Source: Geobacillus thermocatenulatus (GTDB taxonomy: Bacteria; Bacillota; Bacilli; Bacillales; Anoxybacillaceae). From it: a stretch of 64,000 nt of DNA. A program made the position numbers and the translations under genes. Location of the stretch: assembly GCF_002217655.1 (NCBI RefSeq), contig NZ_NEWK01000001.1, positions 1,374,001 to 1,438,000 of the forward strand, in the 5' to 3' direction. The stretch's first letter is position 1; the number at the start of each line of letters is the position of its first letter. The notes beneath the pieces are model-generated. The model had not been told where the DNA came from and made no database searches. It saw nothing but the letters and a program-made list of their open reading frames with translations. Below, one piece after another: positions 3,705 through 45,226 of the stretch.

Positions 3705-3743
3705 AAAAATATCCATATCCCATAACTGAATCCATTCGCAGCA

Positions 3744-3925
3744 AGGTGCCGAAACGGCTTAATAGGGAATCCGGTGGGAATCCGGAGCTGTCCCCGCAAC
3801 TGTCAATGCGGACGAAATGAAATCGCCACTGTACGGACAGATGGGTTGCGCTGTTTTCCGTACGGGAAGGCTTCAGAGTAGGATGAAGCATGAGCCAGTA
3901 GACCTGCCTTGCTTGCCGCAGTTTC
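3744..3925 (+). ncRNA. Cobalamin (B12) riboswitch
   Basis: The segment carries the hallmarks of the adenosylcobalamin riboswitch in order: AAGGTGCC near the 5' end, the core GGTGGGAATCC...GTCCCCGCAACTGT, and the B12 box GCCAGTAGACCTGCC at 3894-3908. It lies upstream of btuF, as expected. The downstream hairpins and the terminator at 3997 would form the expression platform, so ligand binding should reduce transcription of the whole uptake and salvage operon. Confidence 0.93.
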
Positions 3926-38843: not shown

Positions 38844-38972
38844 TTGTAGCCTACCTTGGTTCATCGCTAAAAGATGCACTTGATTGGCAAAAAGTCATTT
38901 CCTTCCCAGCCTCGCAGTCAAGTGCCCTTGGCGTTGATGGACCGATGCCCTTCCGAAAAGGGCGTTTTTTTT
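38844..38972 (+). ncRNA. Possible terminated leader RNA or small RNA ahead of der
   Basis: Between the promoter at 38808 and der lie two structures. GCACTTGA (about 38876-38884) pairs with TCAAGTGC (about 38914-38921) over a 30-nt loop. GCCCTT/AAGGGC (38947-38963) followed by TTTTTTTT is an intrinsic terminator. The terminator lies 45 nt before the der start, so the region is either an attenuator leader or an independent RNA of about 130 nt. It matches no riboswitch class I recognise. Confidence 0.5.
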
Positions 38973-39016
38973 CAGCGACAAAGGGTAAGGAGAAAACGAA
39001 GATAAAGGGTGGTAGC

Positions 39017-40327
39017 ATGGCAAATCCAGTCGTGGCCATTGTCGGCCGTCCAAATGTAGGAAAATCGACGATTTTCAACCGCATTGTCGGGGAACGCATT
39101 TCCATCGTCGAAGACGTGCCTGGAGTGACGCGCGACCGCATTTACAGCCGAGCCGAATGGCTGAACCATTCGTTTTATTTGATCGATACCGGCGGCATTG
39201 ACATTGGCGATGAGCCGCTGCTTGTGCAAATTCGCCAGCAGGCCGAAATCGCCATCGATGAGGCGGATGTCATCATCTTTATGACGAACGGCCGGGACGG
39301 TGTGACTGCGGCTGATGAAGAGGTGGCCAAGCTGCTCCGCCGGTCGAATAAGCCAGTTGTGCTCGCGGTGAACAAAATCGACAATCCGGAAATGCGTGAT
39401 TTGATTTACGACTTTTACGCTCTGGGCTTTGGGGAGCCGTATCCGATTTCCGGAGCTCATGGGACAGGGCTTGGCGATTTGCTTGATGCTGTTGTCCGTC
39501 ATTTTCCAAAGGGCGGTGGACAAGAGTATGAAGAAGACGTCATTAAGTTTTGCCTCATTGGCCGGCCGAATGTCGGCAAATCGTCGCTTGTCAACGCCAT
39601 TTTAGGTGAGGAGCGGGTCATCGTCAGCGACATCGCCGGTACGACGAGGGACGCCGTCGACACCTCGTTTGTGCGCGAAGGGCAGGAATATGTTATCATT
39701 GATACGGCGGGGATGCGCAAACGAGGAAAAATTTACGAAAGCACGGAAAAATATAGCGTCTTGCGCGCGTTAAGGGCCATTGAGCGCTCGGACGTCGTGC
39801 TTGTTGTGTTAAACGCTGAGGAAGGCATCATCGAGCAGGACAAAAAAATTGCCGGATACGCGCATGAAGCGGGTCGCGGTGTCATTTTGGTCGTCAATAA
39901 ATGGGATGCGATTGAAAAGGACGACAAAACGATGGTCGAATTTGAGCGGAAGATTCGCGACCATTTTCCGTTTTTGGACTATGCGCCGATTTTGTTCGTA
40001 TCGGCGAAAACGAAGCAGCGGCTGCATAAGCTCTTGCCGCTCGTCCGGCTTGTGAGTGACAATCATGCGATGCGCGTCCAGACCAATGTGCTCAATGAAG
40101 TCATCATGGATGCGGTGGCGATGAATCCGACGCCGACGCATAACGGGCGGCGTCTGAAAGTTTATTACATGACGCAAGTCGCCGTCAAACCGCCGACGTT
40201 TGTCGCGTTTGTCAACGACCCGGAACTGATGCATTTTTCATATGAACGGTTTTTGGAAAACCGCATCCGCGATGCATTCGGTTTTGAAGGCACACCGATT
40301 AAAATCATCGCCCGCCCGCGGAAATAA
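39017..40327 (+). CDS. der: Ribosome assembly GTPase Der (EngA)
   Basis: A 436-residue protein with two tandem GTPase domains acting in 50S subunit assembly. Domain 1: GRPNVGKST (G1, about residue 9), DTGG (G3), NKID (G4). Domain 2: GRPNVGKSS (about residue 182), DTAG, NKWD. A C-terminal KH-like domain follows ([13 protein letters not shown]). ATG 39017 follows AAAGGGTGGTAGC. The stop codon abuts the first unit of a structured repeat array. Confidence 0.96.
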
Positions 40328-40860
40328 GAAAAGCGGAGGCCGCGCGCCAAGCTCCCGAGGCAAAATGTTCTCCGCGCCGAGAAGTGCTTGCACTTCGAGG
40401 GCGGAGGTTATTTTGCGGAAGGGAGCTAGCGGCCGGAGCTAGACAGGAAGAAAAGCGGAGGCGAGCGGTTCGCCGCGACGGGCAAATGTTCTTCGCCTGG
40501 AGGGATTTACAATCCCGAAGGAGAAGGTTATTTGACCCCGAGCGGCGGCGAGCCGCAGCTAGACAGGAAGAAAAGCGGAGGCGCCGAGATTAGCTCTCGA
40601 AGCCAAATGTTCTTCACCCGCAGGGGGGCCTGCCCCCCGAGGGGGAAGGTTATTTGGCAGAAGAGAGCTAGGCGCCGCAGCTAGACAGGAAGAAAAGCGG
40701 AGGCCGCTTGCCCATCGGCGACACGCGCTGCGGGGCCGGCGAGGAGGCTCGAACCAAGGAAAGTTTGGTTCTGTGTGGGTGGTGTCACAGGAGCGTAAGC
40801 CATGTGTCGCCGCCGCGAAAGTCGGACGAACAGGAGCGAAGAGGCGGCGCGATTGCTATT
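40328..40860 (+). repeat. Array 1 of structured ~120-bp repeats (units A, B, C and divergent D)
   Basis: Four consecutive units begin with GAAAAGCGGAGGC at 40328, 40450, 40570 and 40692; the first three end with GCTAGACAGGAA. Each is a nested inverted repeat. Unit A: GCTCCC/GGGAGC, GCAAAATGTTCTCCGC/GCGGAGGTTATTTTGC, tip GAAGTGC-TT-GCACTTC. Unit B: CAAATGTTCTTC/GAAGGTTATTTG, tip GGGATT/AATCCC. Unit C: GGCGCC, AGCTCTC/GAGAGCT, tip GGGGGGC/GCCCCCC. Unit D shares its first ~60 nt with array 2, then diverges but still has GGCGACAC/GTGTCGCC. Stems change while pairing is kept; AATGTTCT and AGGTTATTT stay constant. The array starts right at the der stop codon and fills most of the gap to gpsA. Confidence 0.9.
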
Positions 40861-40900
40861 TTTCAAGGTTGCGACAATCGGATAAAGGAAGTGGAAAACG

Positions 40901-41935
40901 ATGGAGAACATCGCCGTATTGGGGGCTGGAAGCTGGGGAACGGCGTTGGCGCTCGTGCTGGCTGACAATGGGCACCACGTCCGGCTCTGGGGTCATCGGA
41001 CCGAGCAGATCAACGAAATCAACGAAAAGCGGACAAATGAAAAATATTTGCCAGGCGTTCGCCTGCCGGACGCCATTATCGGCTATGACGACCTTTGTGC
41101 TGCGCTTGACGACGTTGCGATCGTTGTGCTCGCCGTGCCGACGAAAGCGATCCGTACGGTGCTTGCGGACGTGCGCGCCTGCTTGGCCAAGCCGATCACC
41201 GTCGTTGCTGTCAGCAAAGGAATCGAACCAGGGACGCATAAGCGGGTGTCGGAAATGGTCGCCGAGGAAATGGGGGAATGGCTTGCAGATGTTGTCGTTC
41301 TCTCCGGGCCGAGCCATGCCGAGGAAGTCGTGCTCCGCCACCCGACGACCGTGGCGGTATCGTCGCCAAATATGGAAGCGGCGCGCCGCATTCAAGACAT
41401 CTTTATGAACCATCACTATTTTCGCGTGTATACGAACCCGGATTTAATCGGCGTCGAAGTCGGCGGGGCGCTGAAAAATATCATCGCCTTGGCCGCCGGA
41501 ATCAGCGACGGGCTTGGCTATGGGGATAATGCCAAAGCGGCCCTCATCACGCGCGGGCTCGCTGAGATTGCCCGCCTCGGCTGCGCCCTCGGCGCTAATC
41601 CGTTGACATTCGCTGGTTTGACGGGAGTCGGCGATTTGATTGTCACGTGCACGAGCGTCCATTCCCGCAACTGGAGAGCCGGCTACATGCTCGGCCAAGG
41701 AAAAAAGCTGGACAAGGTGCTTGAGAGCATGGGGATGGTCGTCGAAGGGGTGCGAACGACAAAAGCCGCCTATGAGTTGGCGAACGAACTCGGGGTGAAA
41801 ATGCCGATCACCGAAGCCCTCTATGAAGTGCTGTTTGCGGGGAAAGATCCGAAAGAGGCGGTCGATTCGCTCATGGCGCGCGGAAAAAAAGAAGAAATGG
41901 ATGACTTAAACAACATTTTTGCCAAACAAGAATGA
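40901..41935 (+). CDS. gpsA: NAD(P)-dependent glycerol-3-phosphate dehydrogenase GpsA
   Basis: A 344-residue enzyme making sn-glycerol-3-phosphate for phospholipids. The N-terminal nucleotide-binding motif is [21 protein letters not shown]. Further conserved blocks are [17 protein letters not shown], the catalytic-lysine segment [17 protein letters not shown] (about residue 187) and [22 protein letters not shown] 40901 follows AAAGGAAGTGGAAAACG. It may be transcribed with der through the repeat array; no terminator was found between them. Confidence 0.96.
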
Positions 41936-43216: not shown

Positions 43217-44695
43217 TTGGAAAAGGTCGATATTTTTAAAGATATCGCCGAGCGGACCGGCGGCGACATTTATTTAGGGGTCGTCGGCGCCGTCCGCACC
43301 GGAAAATCGACGTTTATTAAACGGTTTATGGAGTTGGTCGTGATTCCGAACATTAAAAACGAAGCCGATAAAGCGCGCGCCCAAGATGAACTGCCGCAAA
43401 GCGCCGCCGGCAAGACGATCATGACGACAGAACCGAAGTTCGTGCCCAACCAGGCGGTGACGGTGAAAGTCGACGAGGGTCTTGAAGTCAACATCCGGCT
43501 TGTCGACTGCGTCGGCTACGCCGTGCCCGGCGCAAAAGGATATGAAGACGAAAACGGGCCGCGGATGATCCACACGCCTTGGTATGAAGAGCCGATCCCG
43601 TTCCAAGAGGCGGCGGAAATCGGGACAAGAAAAGTCATCCAAGAACATTCGACGATTGGAGTCGTCATTACGACGGACGGCACGATCGGGGAAATTCCGC
43701 GCCAAGCCTATGTCGAAGCGGAAGAACGGGTGATCAGCGAGCTCAAAGAAGTCGGCAAGCCGTTCATTATGATCGTCAACACCGTTCGGCCGCACCATCC
43801 GGAAACCGAGGCGCTCCGCCGCGAGCTCGCCGAAAAGTACGACATCCCGGTGCTCGCCATGAGCGTGGAAAGCATGCGCGAAGCCGACGTGTATAACGTG
43901 CTTCGCGAAGCATTATATGAATTCCCGGTGCTTGAAGTGAACGTCAACTTGCCGAGCTGGGTGATGGTGCTGCGCGAAGATCATTGGCTGCGCGAAAGCT
44001 ACCAAGAAGCGGTGCGCGACACCGTCAAAGACATCAAACGGCTGCGCGACGTCGACCGGGTTGTGCAGCAGTTTGCCGAGTACGACTTTATCGAAAAAGC
44101 GGCGCTTGCCGGCATCGAAATGGGGCAAGGGATCGCCGAAATTGACTTGTATGCACCGGATGAGCTGTACGATCAAATTTTAAAAGAAATCGTCGGCGTC
44201 GAAATCCGCGGCAAAGACCATCTGCTTCAGCTCATGCAAGACTTCGCCCATGCGAAAGCGGAATATGACCAAATCGCCGACGCGCTGAAAATGGTCAAAC
44301 AAACCGGCTACGGCATCGCTGCGCCCGCCTTGTCGGACATGAGCTTGGATGAGCCGGAAATCATCCGCCAAGGGTCGCGCTTTGGCGTCCGTTTGAAAGC
44401 CGTCGCGCCGTCGATTCATATGATCAAAGTTGACGTCGAATCGGAGTTTGCCCCGATCATTGGCACAGAAAAGCAAAGCGAAGAGCTTGTCCGCTATTTA
44501 ATGCAAGACTTCGAAGACGATCCGCTGTCGATTTGGAACTCTGACATTTTCGGCCGCTCGCTCAGCTCCATCGTCCGTGAAGGCATCCAAGCGAAACTGG
44601 CGCTCATGCCGGAAAACGCCCGCTACAAGCTGAAAGAAACGCTTGAGCGCATCATCAACGAAGGCTCTGGCGGCCTCATTGCGATTATTTTATAG
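43217..44695 (+). CDS. spoIVA: Spore coat morphogenetic ATPase SpoIVA
   Basis: A 492-residue protein that polymerises on the forespore surface as the basement of the spore coat. The Walker A-like site is GVVGAVRTGKSTFIKRF (about residue 21); NTVRPHHPETEAL and the conserved C-terminus GSGGLIAIIL match the family. Length equals B. subtilis SpoIVA. It starts at TTG 43217 after CTGGAGGGGAGTCA. The TAG stop is fused to the start of the second repeat array. Confidence 0.96.
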   Translation: MEKVDIFKDIAERTGGDIYLGVVGAVRTGKSTFIKRFMELVVIPNIKNEADKARAQDELPQSAAGKTIMTTEPKFVPNQAVTVKVDEGLEVNIRLVDCVGYAVPGAKGYEDENGPRMIHTPWYEEPIPFQEAAEIGTRKVIQEHSTIGVVITTDGTIGEIPRQAYVEAEERVISELKEVGKPFIMIVNTVRPHHPETEALRRELAEKYDIPVLAMSVESMREADVYNVLREALYEFPVLEVNVNLPSWVMVLREDHWLRESYQEAVRDTVKDIKRLRDVDRVVQQFAEYDFIEKAALAGIEMGQGIAEIDLYAPDELYDQILKEIVGVEIRGKDHLLQLMQDFAHAKAEYDQIADALKMVKQTGYGIAAPALSDMSLDEPEIIRQGSRFGVRLKAVAPSIHMIKVDVESEFAPIIGTEKQSEELVRYLMQDFEDDPLSIWNSDIFGRSLSSIVREGIQAKLALMPENARYKLKETLERIINEGSGGLIAIIL

Positions 44696-45195
44696 AAAAG
44701 CGGAGGCGAGCAGTTCGCCGCGACGGGCAAATGTTCTTCGCCTGGAGGGATTTACAATCCCGAAGGCGAAGGTTATTTGACCCCGAGCGGCGGCGAGCCG
44801 GAGCTAGACAATAAGAAAAGCGGAGGCGAGCGGTTCGCCGCGACGGGCAAATGTTCTTCTCCTGGAGGGATTTACAATCCCGAAGGCGAAGGTTATTTGA
44901 CCCCGAGCGGCGGCGAGCCGCAGCTAGACAGAAAGAAAAGCGGAGGCGCCGAGATTAGCTCTCGAAGCCAAATGTTCTTCACCCGCAGGGGGGGGCCTGC
45001 CCTCCGAGGGGGAAGGTTATTTGGCAGAAGAGAGCTAGGCGCCGCAGCTAGACAGAAAGAAAAGCGGAGGCCGCTTGCCCATCGGCGACACGCGCTGCGG
45101 GGCCCGCGAGGAGGCTGTTGCCGCCGCAGAGGGACACGCAGCGTCGCAAGCCGATAGCGGCCGGAGCTAGACAGAAAGAAAAGCGGAGGCCGCGC
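44695..45195 (+). repeat. Array 2 of structured ~120-bp repeats (units B, B, C, D, truncated A)
   Basis: Units start at 44695, 44815, 44935, 45059 and 45178 with (G)AAAAGCGGAGGC; the four complete ones end with GCTAGACA. Two type-B units are nearly identical to each other and to unit B of array 1; unit C and the first half of D also match array 1. The complete D folds through GGCCGC/GCGGCC and ATCGGC/GCCGAT. The order B-C-D-A continues the A-B-C-D order of array 1 cyclically. The last unit keeps only its A-type start before running into a terminator. The first G of the array is the last base of the spoIVA stop codon. Confidence 0.9.
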
Positions 45196-45198
45196 GCC

Positions 45199-45226
45199 AA
45201 GCTCCCGGCAAGGGGGCTTTTTTTGA
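45199..45226 (+). terminator. Terminator closing array 2
   Basis: The A-type start AAGCTCCC is followed by GGCAAG and GGGGGCTTTTTTT; AGCTCCC pairs with GGGGGCT (one G-U), then seven T. The hairpin uses the 5' stem arm of an A unit. Confidence 0.7.

Follow-up and report, generated by a model that had tools for sequence, protein, structure and literature searches.

Intergenic regions of Geobacillus thermocatenulatus carry arrays of hairpin units of about 120 nt, which belong to a large interspersed family found in many Bacillales. We consider these units probably to be modular, non-autonomous mobile hairpin repeats, similar in kind to the BOX elements of streptococci. A constant frame with exchangeable interiors, pairing maintained through sequence change, differing sets of units at the same site in close species and a pronounced concentration of sense arrays at stop codons are the main observations considered below. 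If correct, this reading would provide a common frame for rRNA-spacer hairpins of Geobacillus, strange 3' UTRs and the Bacillaceae-1 RNA, and a covariance model is now available to annotate the units.

Hairpin units in the window

The window is the whole stretch of 64,000 nucleotides that was analyzed; its features are listed in Table 1. Gene names are from NCBIfam matches over the cut-offs, and the true start of der may lie about 24 codons inside the called open reading frame. Between der and gpsA, units A, B and C follow each other head to tail, starting one base past the der stop codon TAA (40325-40327). They have common ends, GAAAAGCGGAGGC at the 5' side and GCTAGACAGG / GCTAGACAGGAA at the 3' side, and different interiors. 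With up to two mismatches GAAAAGCGGAGGC is found 18 times in the window compared to 3.9 expected, and none of 100 shuffles had as many; nine of the 18 matches are exact, and all nine are inside the two arrays, partial units counted. Each of the three units forms one long imperfect hairpin, with fold z scores of -5.3, -5.6 and -6.9 for A, B and C against 200 dinucleotide shuffles per unit (1, 0 and 0 shuffles, respectively, folded as well).

A previous, sequence-only reading of this DNA described an array at 40328-40860 of structured units of about 120 nt with shared ends, whose outer stems and hairpin tips change completely yet remain self-complementary. Repeated structured units from 40328 onward are confirmed and their extent is larger than it noted; GAAAAGCGGAGGC and GCTAGACAGG are present in A, B and C, as are all three of the hairpin tips it quoted (GAAGTGC/GCACTTC, GGGATT/AATCCC and GGGGGGC/GCCCCCC). 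Its array has three full units to 40691, but the fourth stretch is only a partial, type D-like one. The first ~57 nt of this stretch (40692 to about 40860) match unit D, which is complete at 45059-45177, the remainder is divergent, and no clear folding beyond chance was observed there (z -1.8 and -1.0 compared to shuffles). The outer stem of B does differ from those of A and C, but A and C have it partly in common (AGCTCYC in both).

A second array, absent from that reading, follows spoIVA at 44695-45177 and ends with a partial unit, the order being B, B, C, D and partial A-type. The first G of this array is also the last base of the spoIVA stop codon TAG (44693-44695). An intrinsic-terminator-like hairpin with its stem at 45199-45219 and a T run is found in the partial unit.

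Table 1. Repeat units and neighboring genes in the window. R1 is the covariance model built from the six A, B and C units.
Feature	Position	Strand	Basis or remark
der (ribosome biogenesis GTPase), upstream of array 1	38945..40327	+	TIGR03594 above cut-off
Unit A, type II interior, first of array 1	40328..40449	+	122 nt; R1 match
Unit B, type II interior	40450..40569	+	120 nt; R1 match
Unit C, type II interior	40570..40691	+	122 nt; R1 match
Partial unit, type D-like 5' part	40692..40750, end approximate	+	alignment to D
gpsA, downstream of array 1	40901..41935	+	NF000941 above cut-off
spoIVA, upstream of array 2	43217..44695	+	TIGR02836 above cut-off
Unit B, first of array 2	44695..44814	+	R1 match
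Unit B, second copy	44815..44934	+	R1 match
Unit C of array 2	44935..45058	+	fold and R1 match
Unit D, frame as in the other units, AATGTTCT core absent from the interior	45059..45177	+	fold z -2.9; R1 50.5 bits
Partial A-type unit	45178..45222, end approximate	+	AAGCTCCC arm pairs into terminator-like hairpin with T run

One frame with several interiors

Reading units out by their ends gave 84 units with a stricter pattern and 338 with a looser one, of which 261 are distinct. A constant frame, GAAAAGCGRARGC ... GGAGCTAGACA, closes a long imperfect hairpin, while interiors and accessory hairpins are interchangeable; longer units hold extra hairpins, and units occur singly or head to tail. Type I interiors (CATAAG...CTTATG) are found in 73 of the distinct units and type II interiors, with the core AATGTTCT...AGGTTATTT, in 61. 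Type III units, about 147 nt long and carrying GAGATAAAGGAAACACG...TGTTGACTTATC, and type IV interiors (CTGGA...GAAG) account for 29 each, with 69 units untyped. In many arrays of the genome G054 (L275-L290), a similar tail, approximately CTAAAACTGAGTTCAAAATTTATA, comes after the last unit; this tail is not seen between tandem units.

The type II core is the one quoted by the sequence-only reading, which took the units for a family of tandem structured RNAs that bind a protein through this conserved core. The units are indeed structured and tandem, and type II interiors have invariant G-U and U-G pairs (23 of 23 units each). However, AATGTTCT/AGGTTATTT is limited to type II and not conserved family-wide: the other 200 distinct units are of other types or untyped, the other types keep the frame around different interiors, and single units are common. 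The data therefore do not indicate a core through which the whole family would bind a protein. We found no specific support for such an RNA and regard it as highly improbable.

Base pairing and the folded strand

Pairing was examined in alignments of 46 type I and 23 type II units out of 129 short representatives, the others being 21 of type IV and 39 of other kinds, with 48 long units in addition. In type I, 95.3% of cells are paired compared to 75.0% in shuffles and 26.9-47.8% with the partner slid, where the comparison with slid partners favors the consensus structures, as these were taken from the same alignments. Changes on both sides were found for 27 of the 35 type I pairs and double changes for 19 of the 30 type II pairs, counts which are not of independent events since the units are related by descent. 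None of 500 shuffles reached the observed type I values, except for pair types (1 of 500). In type II, 97.4% of cells are paired and 0 of 500 shuffles did as well.

The sequence-only reading saw selection on structure here, a claim it made dependent on significant covariation. Covariation was found beyond both shuffled and slid controls, and the pairing kept in the two alignments agrees with selection or some other mechanism that preserves pairing.

At paired columns G-U outnumbers A-C by 57:7 in the type I alignment and by 57:6 in that of type II, or by 33:7 and 11:6 when pairs dominated by G-U are left aside. This large excess of G-U over A-C indicates that the strand with GAAAAGC at its 5' end, the plus strand in the window, is the folded one. 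The folded form may act as RNA or as single-stranded DNA. The units had been placed on the gene-sense strand; the named strand does fold, but gene-sense orientation is frequent and not universal, with 24 of 55 arrays in a wider set (described below) running opposite to the upstream ORF.

Copies in rRNA operons

R1 matched the host genome 23 times. Eight of these matches are in the window, one of them being the antisense echo of a unit, and 15 are outside it. Judged by their flanks, all 15 copies outside the window sit in rRNA operons in the transcribed orientation, some immediately behind the 23S gene, others between 23S and 5S or ahead of 16S, the start of which was recognized by sequence. 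Four of these loci (L014, L019, L020 and L025) were scanned with Rfam and the rest assigned from flanks; in L014 the Rfam 23S model ends at the base adjoining the unit. Two of the rRNA-linked copies are chimeras, half B and half C, with outer stems that do not pair and z scores of -2.2 and -2.6 compared to -6.0 and -7.5 for two intact copies. The persistence of chimeras with broken outer stems in rRNA operons counts against strict maintenance of pairing.

These copies bear on an alternative in which the units serve the host as 3'-UTR or rRNA-spacer RNAs, their hairpins protecting or processing transcripts just past a coding region or the 23S rRNA, by RNase III-type cleavage or by blocking 3'-5' exonucleases. 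The transcribed orientation of all 15 copies within rRNA operons argues for this, as do the conserved pairing and the terminator-like hairpin at the end of array 2, while the chimeric units argue against it. Further evidence on this alternative comes from orthologous sites and from the position of arrays relative to genes.

Turnover at orthologous sites

The region after spoIVA was compared among Geobacillus-group genomes in which the end of spoIVA is 95-98% identical to that of the host. G012 has the partial unit only. Ahead of the partial unit, G009 and G007 have A, G008 has an A-like unit, G011 has A, C, G010 has B, A, C, and the host has B, B, C, D. The site between der and gpsA varies from no units through degenerate copies to one to three units; L071 and L073 reach R1 scores of just 30.7 and 31.8 bits, and L064, L067, L068 and L069 gave no R1 match. 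The C-terminal residues of Der and SpoIVA are the same in genomes without units (e.g., L080 and L234).

The array is not a fixed feature of the site between der and gpsA: copies are interspersed, gained and lost between close species, and degenerate at some orthologous sites. Gain of a different unit type is not simple tandem duplication and needs either exchange with another copy or insertion, and arrays could grow by recombination alone, without transposition. No filled and empty pair with a clean target site duplication was obtained from the orthologous sites, and the empty site in G010 may be a deletion. That units at one orthologous site differ between close species, and are degraded in some, speaks against a host-serving RNA.

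Placement at stop codons

In loci selected by unit junctions, 80 of the 122 groups could be used. Of the 47 sense arrays among them, 34 begin between -1 and +5 nt of a stop codon, and none of the 33 arrays whose upstream ORF is on the opposite strand lies at this distance, locus L165 supplying three of those 33 groups. A unit so near a start codon, as it would be in opposite-strand arrays, would be disfavored anyway. As this set is possibly biased, a second one was taken from 40 stretches around the listed model hits of two genomes. It holds 75 units in 55 arrays by pattern, compared to 122 model matches, some of which are antisense echoes; some of the 55 arrays belong together as parts of a single array that a different module interrupts. 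In this set 31 arrays are sense and 24 opposite to the upstream ORF; 20 of the 31 sense arrays start at -1 to +5 nt from the stop codon and all 24 opposite ones are at least 18 nt away.

Arrays are mostly preceded by an A, and the triplet ahead of the first unit is often TAA. This flank preference is also seen with the upstream ORF on the other strand, where TAA was found in 12 of 49 cases compared to a background of 2.6%. With the flank preference taken into account, 4.9 stop-codon starts are expected and 20 were observed (P about 5e-13), and with uniform sites 2.4 are expected (P 7e-20), where the weighting is from 21 flanks, the calling of ORFs was crude and arrays from the same genome are not entirely independent of each other. 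The flank preference alone is therefore insufficient, which leaves directed insertion at gene ends or survival of copies at these places. Such tight placement would be unexpected for neutral debris and points to targeting or selection.

In the reading that we favor, copies would arrive by insertion beside TAA-like sites through a mobilizing enzyme, and arrays would then be altered through recombination between units. Copies would survive best where they are transcribed but harmless, between the end of a gene and its terminator, a position seen at array 2 and presumed for the other arrays. Each hairpin there would be a passive element of the 3' UTR, slowing down 3'-5' exonucleases or providing a cleavage site for RNase III. 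A benefit to the host, such as stabilized messages, RNase III sites or rRNA processing, is possible.

Service to the host as the reason for the units is a different matter. It agrees with sense arrays at stop codons far beyond chance, even given the flank preference, but 24 of the 55 arrays have their upstream ORF on the other strand, and R1 copy number ranges from 0 to at least 55 per genome. Together with the evidence from rRNA operons and orthologous sites, we take this alternative to be possible, though rather unlikely.

Placement just past functional sequence in two classes of genes, after stop codons and after 23S, also brings to mind insertion at the RNA level, with a folded RNA copy joined or copied into message ends by reverse transcription or recombination. 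The precise 5' end, the frequent termination of arrays in 3'-truncated partial units and the structure on the sense strand are consistent with this. Against it, no reverse transcriptase or ribozyme has so far been linked to the units and 24 of the 55 arrays are not sense to the upstream ORF. Retro-copies are usually 5'-truncated, and the 3' truncation seen here is the opposite of this pattern. We think such insertion very unlikely. A broader proposal would be a large system of RNA-like parasites in Bacillales. In it, a hairpin frame would take up exchangeable cargo hairpins such as Bacillaceae-1 and would be delivered, at the RNA or transcription level, immediately behind stop codons and mature 23S rRNA; this appears to us quite unlikely.

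Search for a mobilizing enzyme

No mobilizing enzyme or autonomous copy was seen in 122 loci, where, among the long spans, those of L165 were opened for ORFs. These loci have 29 spans of 203-3978 nt between 5' and 3' ends, of which those up to about 300 nt are read as nested or fused units. An autonomous element with an ORF between its ends was considered for three spans of L165, a Bacillus testis scaffold with Ns, and rejected, as they trace to an IS110-type insertion and the gap-containing scaffold. There, an IS110-family transposase (PF02371 and PF01548; reverse strand ORF, 1346-2629 of the locus) lies between the halves of a type III unit, so that the unit was the target here and not the carrier. 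Parts of this region are repeated, perhaps by assembly.

A strand-specific fold, tandem arrays and a short flank preference are features that would also fit a REP-like system, in which a Y1 (RAYT/IS200-type) transposase mobilizes the elements as folded single-stranded DNA, and Y1 genes are common (PF01797 in 52 of 61 genomes). Six of the nine genomes without PF01797 nevertheless carry units by R1 (29 in G005, 15 in G006, 41 in G013, 7 in G014, 1 in G016 and 29 in G017), and a seventh, G048, has six R2 matches (R2 is a second covariance model, from 46 type I units). A Y1/RAYT transposase is thus ruled out as a requirement, and we consider movement of the units by one extremely improbable. Three of the nine genomes without Y1 are also without an R1 match, which may reflect a weak link to Y1.

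Distribution across Bacillales

A search of genomes with a covariance model had been suggested by the sequence-only reading as a check. Run with R1, it gave, besides the 23 host matches, positives in 51 of the 61 genomes searched, host included; the high counts per genome are lower bounds, as at most the best 58 candidates were scored in each. In five genomes taken for their high R1 counts, R2 matched 40, 76, 84, 117 and 93 times. In a class-wide sample, at least 58 of 398 genomes were positive for R2 with the best nine candidates of each scored, and all 58 belong to the order of the host or to two further families of the class. One genus of the host's order (g34) had no R2 match in its six genomes listed, again with the best nine candidates scored in each.

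A scan for unit junctions in one genome per species found at least 120 stretches. The 80 titles listed are all from Bacillales, judged by genus name, and include Geobacillus, Anoxybacillus, Planococcus, Lysinibacillus, Cytobacillus and Terribacillus. Similar sequences are presumably present in Bacillus genomes, with no name for them known to us.

A phage origin was rejected, with no match of array 1 among 50,697 phage records, as was a plasmid origin, with a match in only one of 72,556 plasmid records. A unit junction is present in two IMG/VR contigs (L211 and L212), possibly in host flank of a prophage. The plasmid match is an 11.4-kb Geobacillus subterraneus record (NZ_CP051163.1, L031) with units, hisD, cmpA and a SprT-family gene, and this record may be a chromosomal fragment.

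Relation to known repeats

Small modular hairpin repeats are known as a kind. BOX elements of Streptococcus pneumoniae and S. suis are likewise short, non-coding, modular, hairpin-forming and interspersed, have variable numbers of tandem modules with array lengths that vary between strains, and have no proven mobilizing enzyme (PMC3049150). The units here are also modular repeats with a variable number of tandem modules. BOX has the order boxA-boxB-boxC, which was not seen here; instead, every module is a hairpin that keeps one frame and can exchange its interior. The units have the same two ends, and their arrays end in partial units or other sequence, an arrangement that looks unlike boxA and boxC flanking boxB. 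BOX gene distances are reported to be like those of intergenic sequence (PMC3049150), whereas sense units here are pinned to stop codons. This placement opens two questions, by what route small non-autonomous repeats come to lie at transcribed 3' ends and whether mRNA stability is something that hosts set with them. Both mobile-parasite and mRNA-stabilizing readings have been discussed for such repeats (PMC3049150).

Other repeats were also compared by description. The bcr1 repeats of the Bacillus cereus group and MITE-like repeats resemble the units as interspersed, structured sequences of ~150 nt in Bacillaceae with mobile features (PMC3733652, PMC2267715), but bcr1 is specific to the B. cereus group by the cited title whereas the units span many genera. 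Terminal inverted repeats like those of an autonomous IS are expected of MITEs, and the unit ends are only partly inverted, by eye. REP/BIME sequences are palindromic, tandem, intergenic and often 3' of genes (see PMC3733652), but they are 20-40 nt compared to ~120 nt here, and the units have no requirement for a Y1 transposase. Bhal-1 and Bhal-2 of B. halodurans are stem-loop repeats of 74 and 76 nt with 36 and 50 copies (PMC2267715); they could in principle be part of the unit family. A CRISPR array was rejected, as unit interiors recur between arrays and self-pair.

None of the families in Rfam 15 matches any window unit at the gathering threshold, and a permissive scan of 40300-40900 returned only weak, unrelated hits to viral and miRNA families. 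The statement that no named RNA family fits is accordingly supported for the whole unit, though Rfam does hold a frequent companion module, Bacillaceae-1. Bacillaceae-1 (RF01690) as the whole unit was rejected, since it has no window match at the gathering score and elsewhere is an inserted or adjacent module. The same window has a cobalamin riboswitch (RF00174) at 3727-3925. Among the open-access papers listed, none describes the unit family by its title or the start of its abstract, and those containing an 11-base motif deal with unrelated subjects; a description may exist in subscription papers or bioRxiv. Within this scope we came across no account of the frame, its exchangeable interiors, the association with Bacillaceae-1 or the position at stop codons.

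Bacillaceae-1 RNA as a companion module

We know of no established function of the Bacillaceae-1 RNA. It is a motif of its own with 67 positions and is represented in Rfam as RF01690 (PMC2864571). It frequently occurs between or inside units on the same strand, and in L180 a match lies inside a 207-nt unit. In 13 loci of G045 that were chosen for their units, there are 26 Bacillaceae-1 matches, every one of which has the same strand as the unit nearest to it; 16 of them lie no more than 10 nt from an R2 unit. Nine further matches in these loci are 44 to 187 nt away, several of them, by eye, within a divergent neighboring unit, and the remaining match lies in a different repeat at a distance of 4.3 kb. 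Across the whole G045 genome, where distances are to 49 listed units of 76, 19 of the 53 Bacillaceae-1 matches listed are within 10 nt and 37 within 500 nt of a listed unit, and 16 are more than 1.6 kb from any of them. The partnership is strong but not exclusive, the genome-wide count being weaker than that in the unit-chosen loci.

Bacillaceae-1 is a separate module that can occur apart from the unit: R2 gave 117 units in G054, where Bacillaceae-1 has no match, and in G049 the motif matched 45 times but neither R1 nor R2 gave a unit. A single Bacillaceae-1 match is present in the host genome, at 1574-1642 of L019, in an rRNA-linked array upstream of 16S, and the named control Bacillus subtilis has the motif as well. 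As a module it appears to move freely. In G049 (L291-L302) it was found in other repeat settings without the frame, some of them tandem (AAAGGAACTTTCGCTAAG...CGTCCTG...CATCCTG). By eye, Bacillaceae-1 is also part of two or more further repeat families whose frames differ, in L305 and L306 of G043 and at 10064-10129 of L256.
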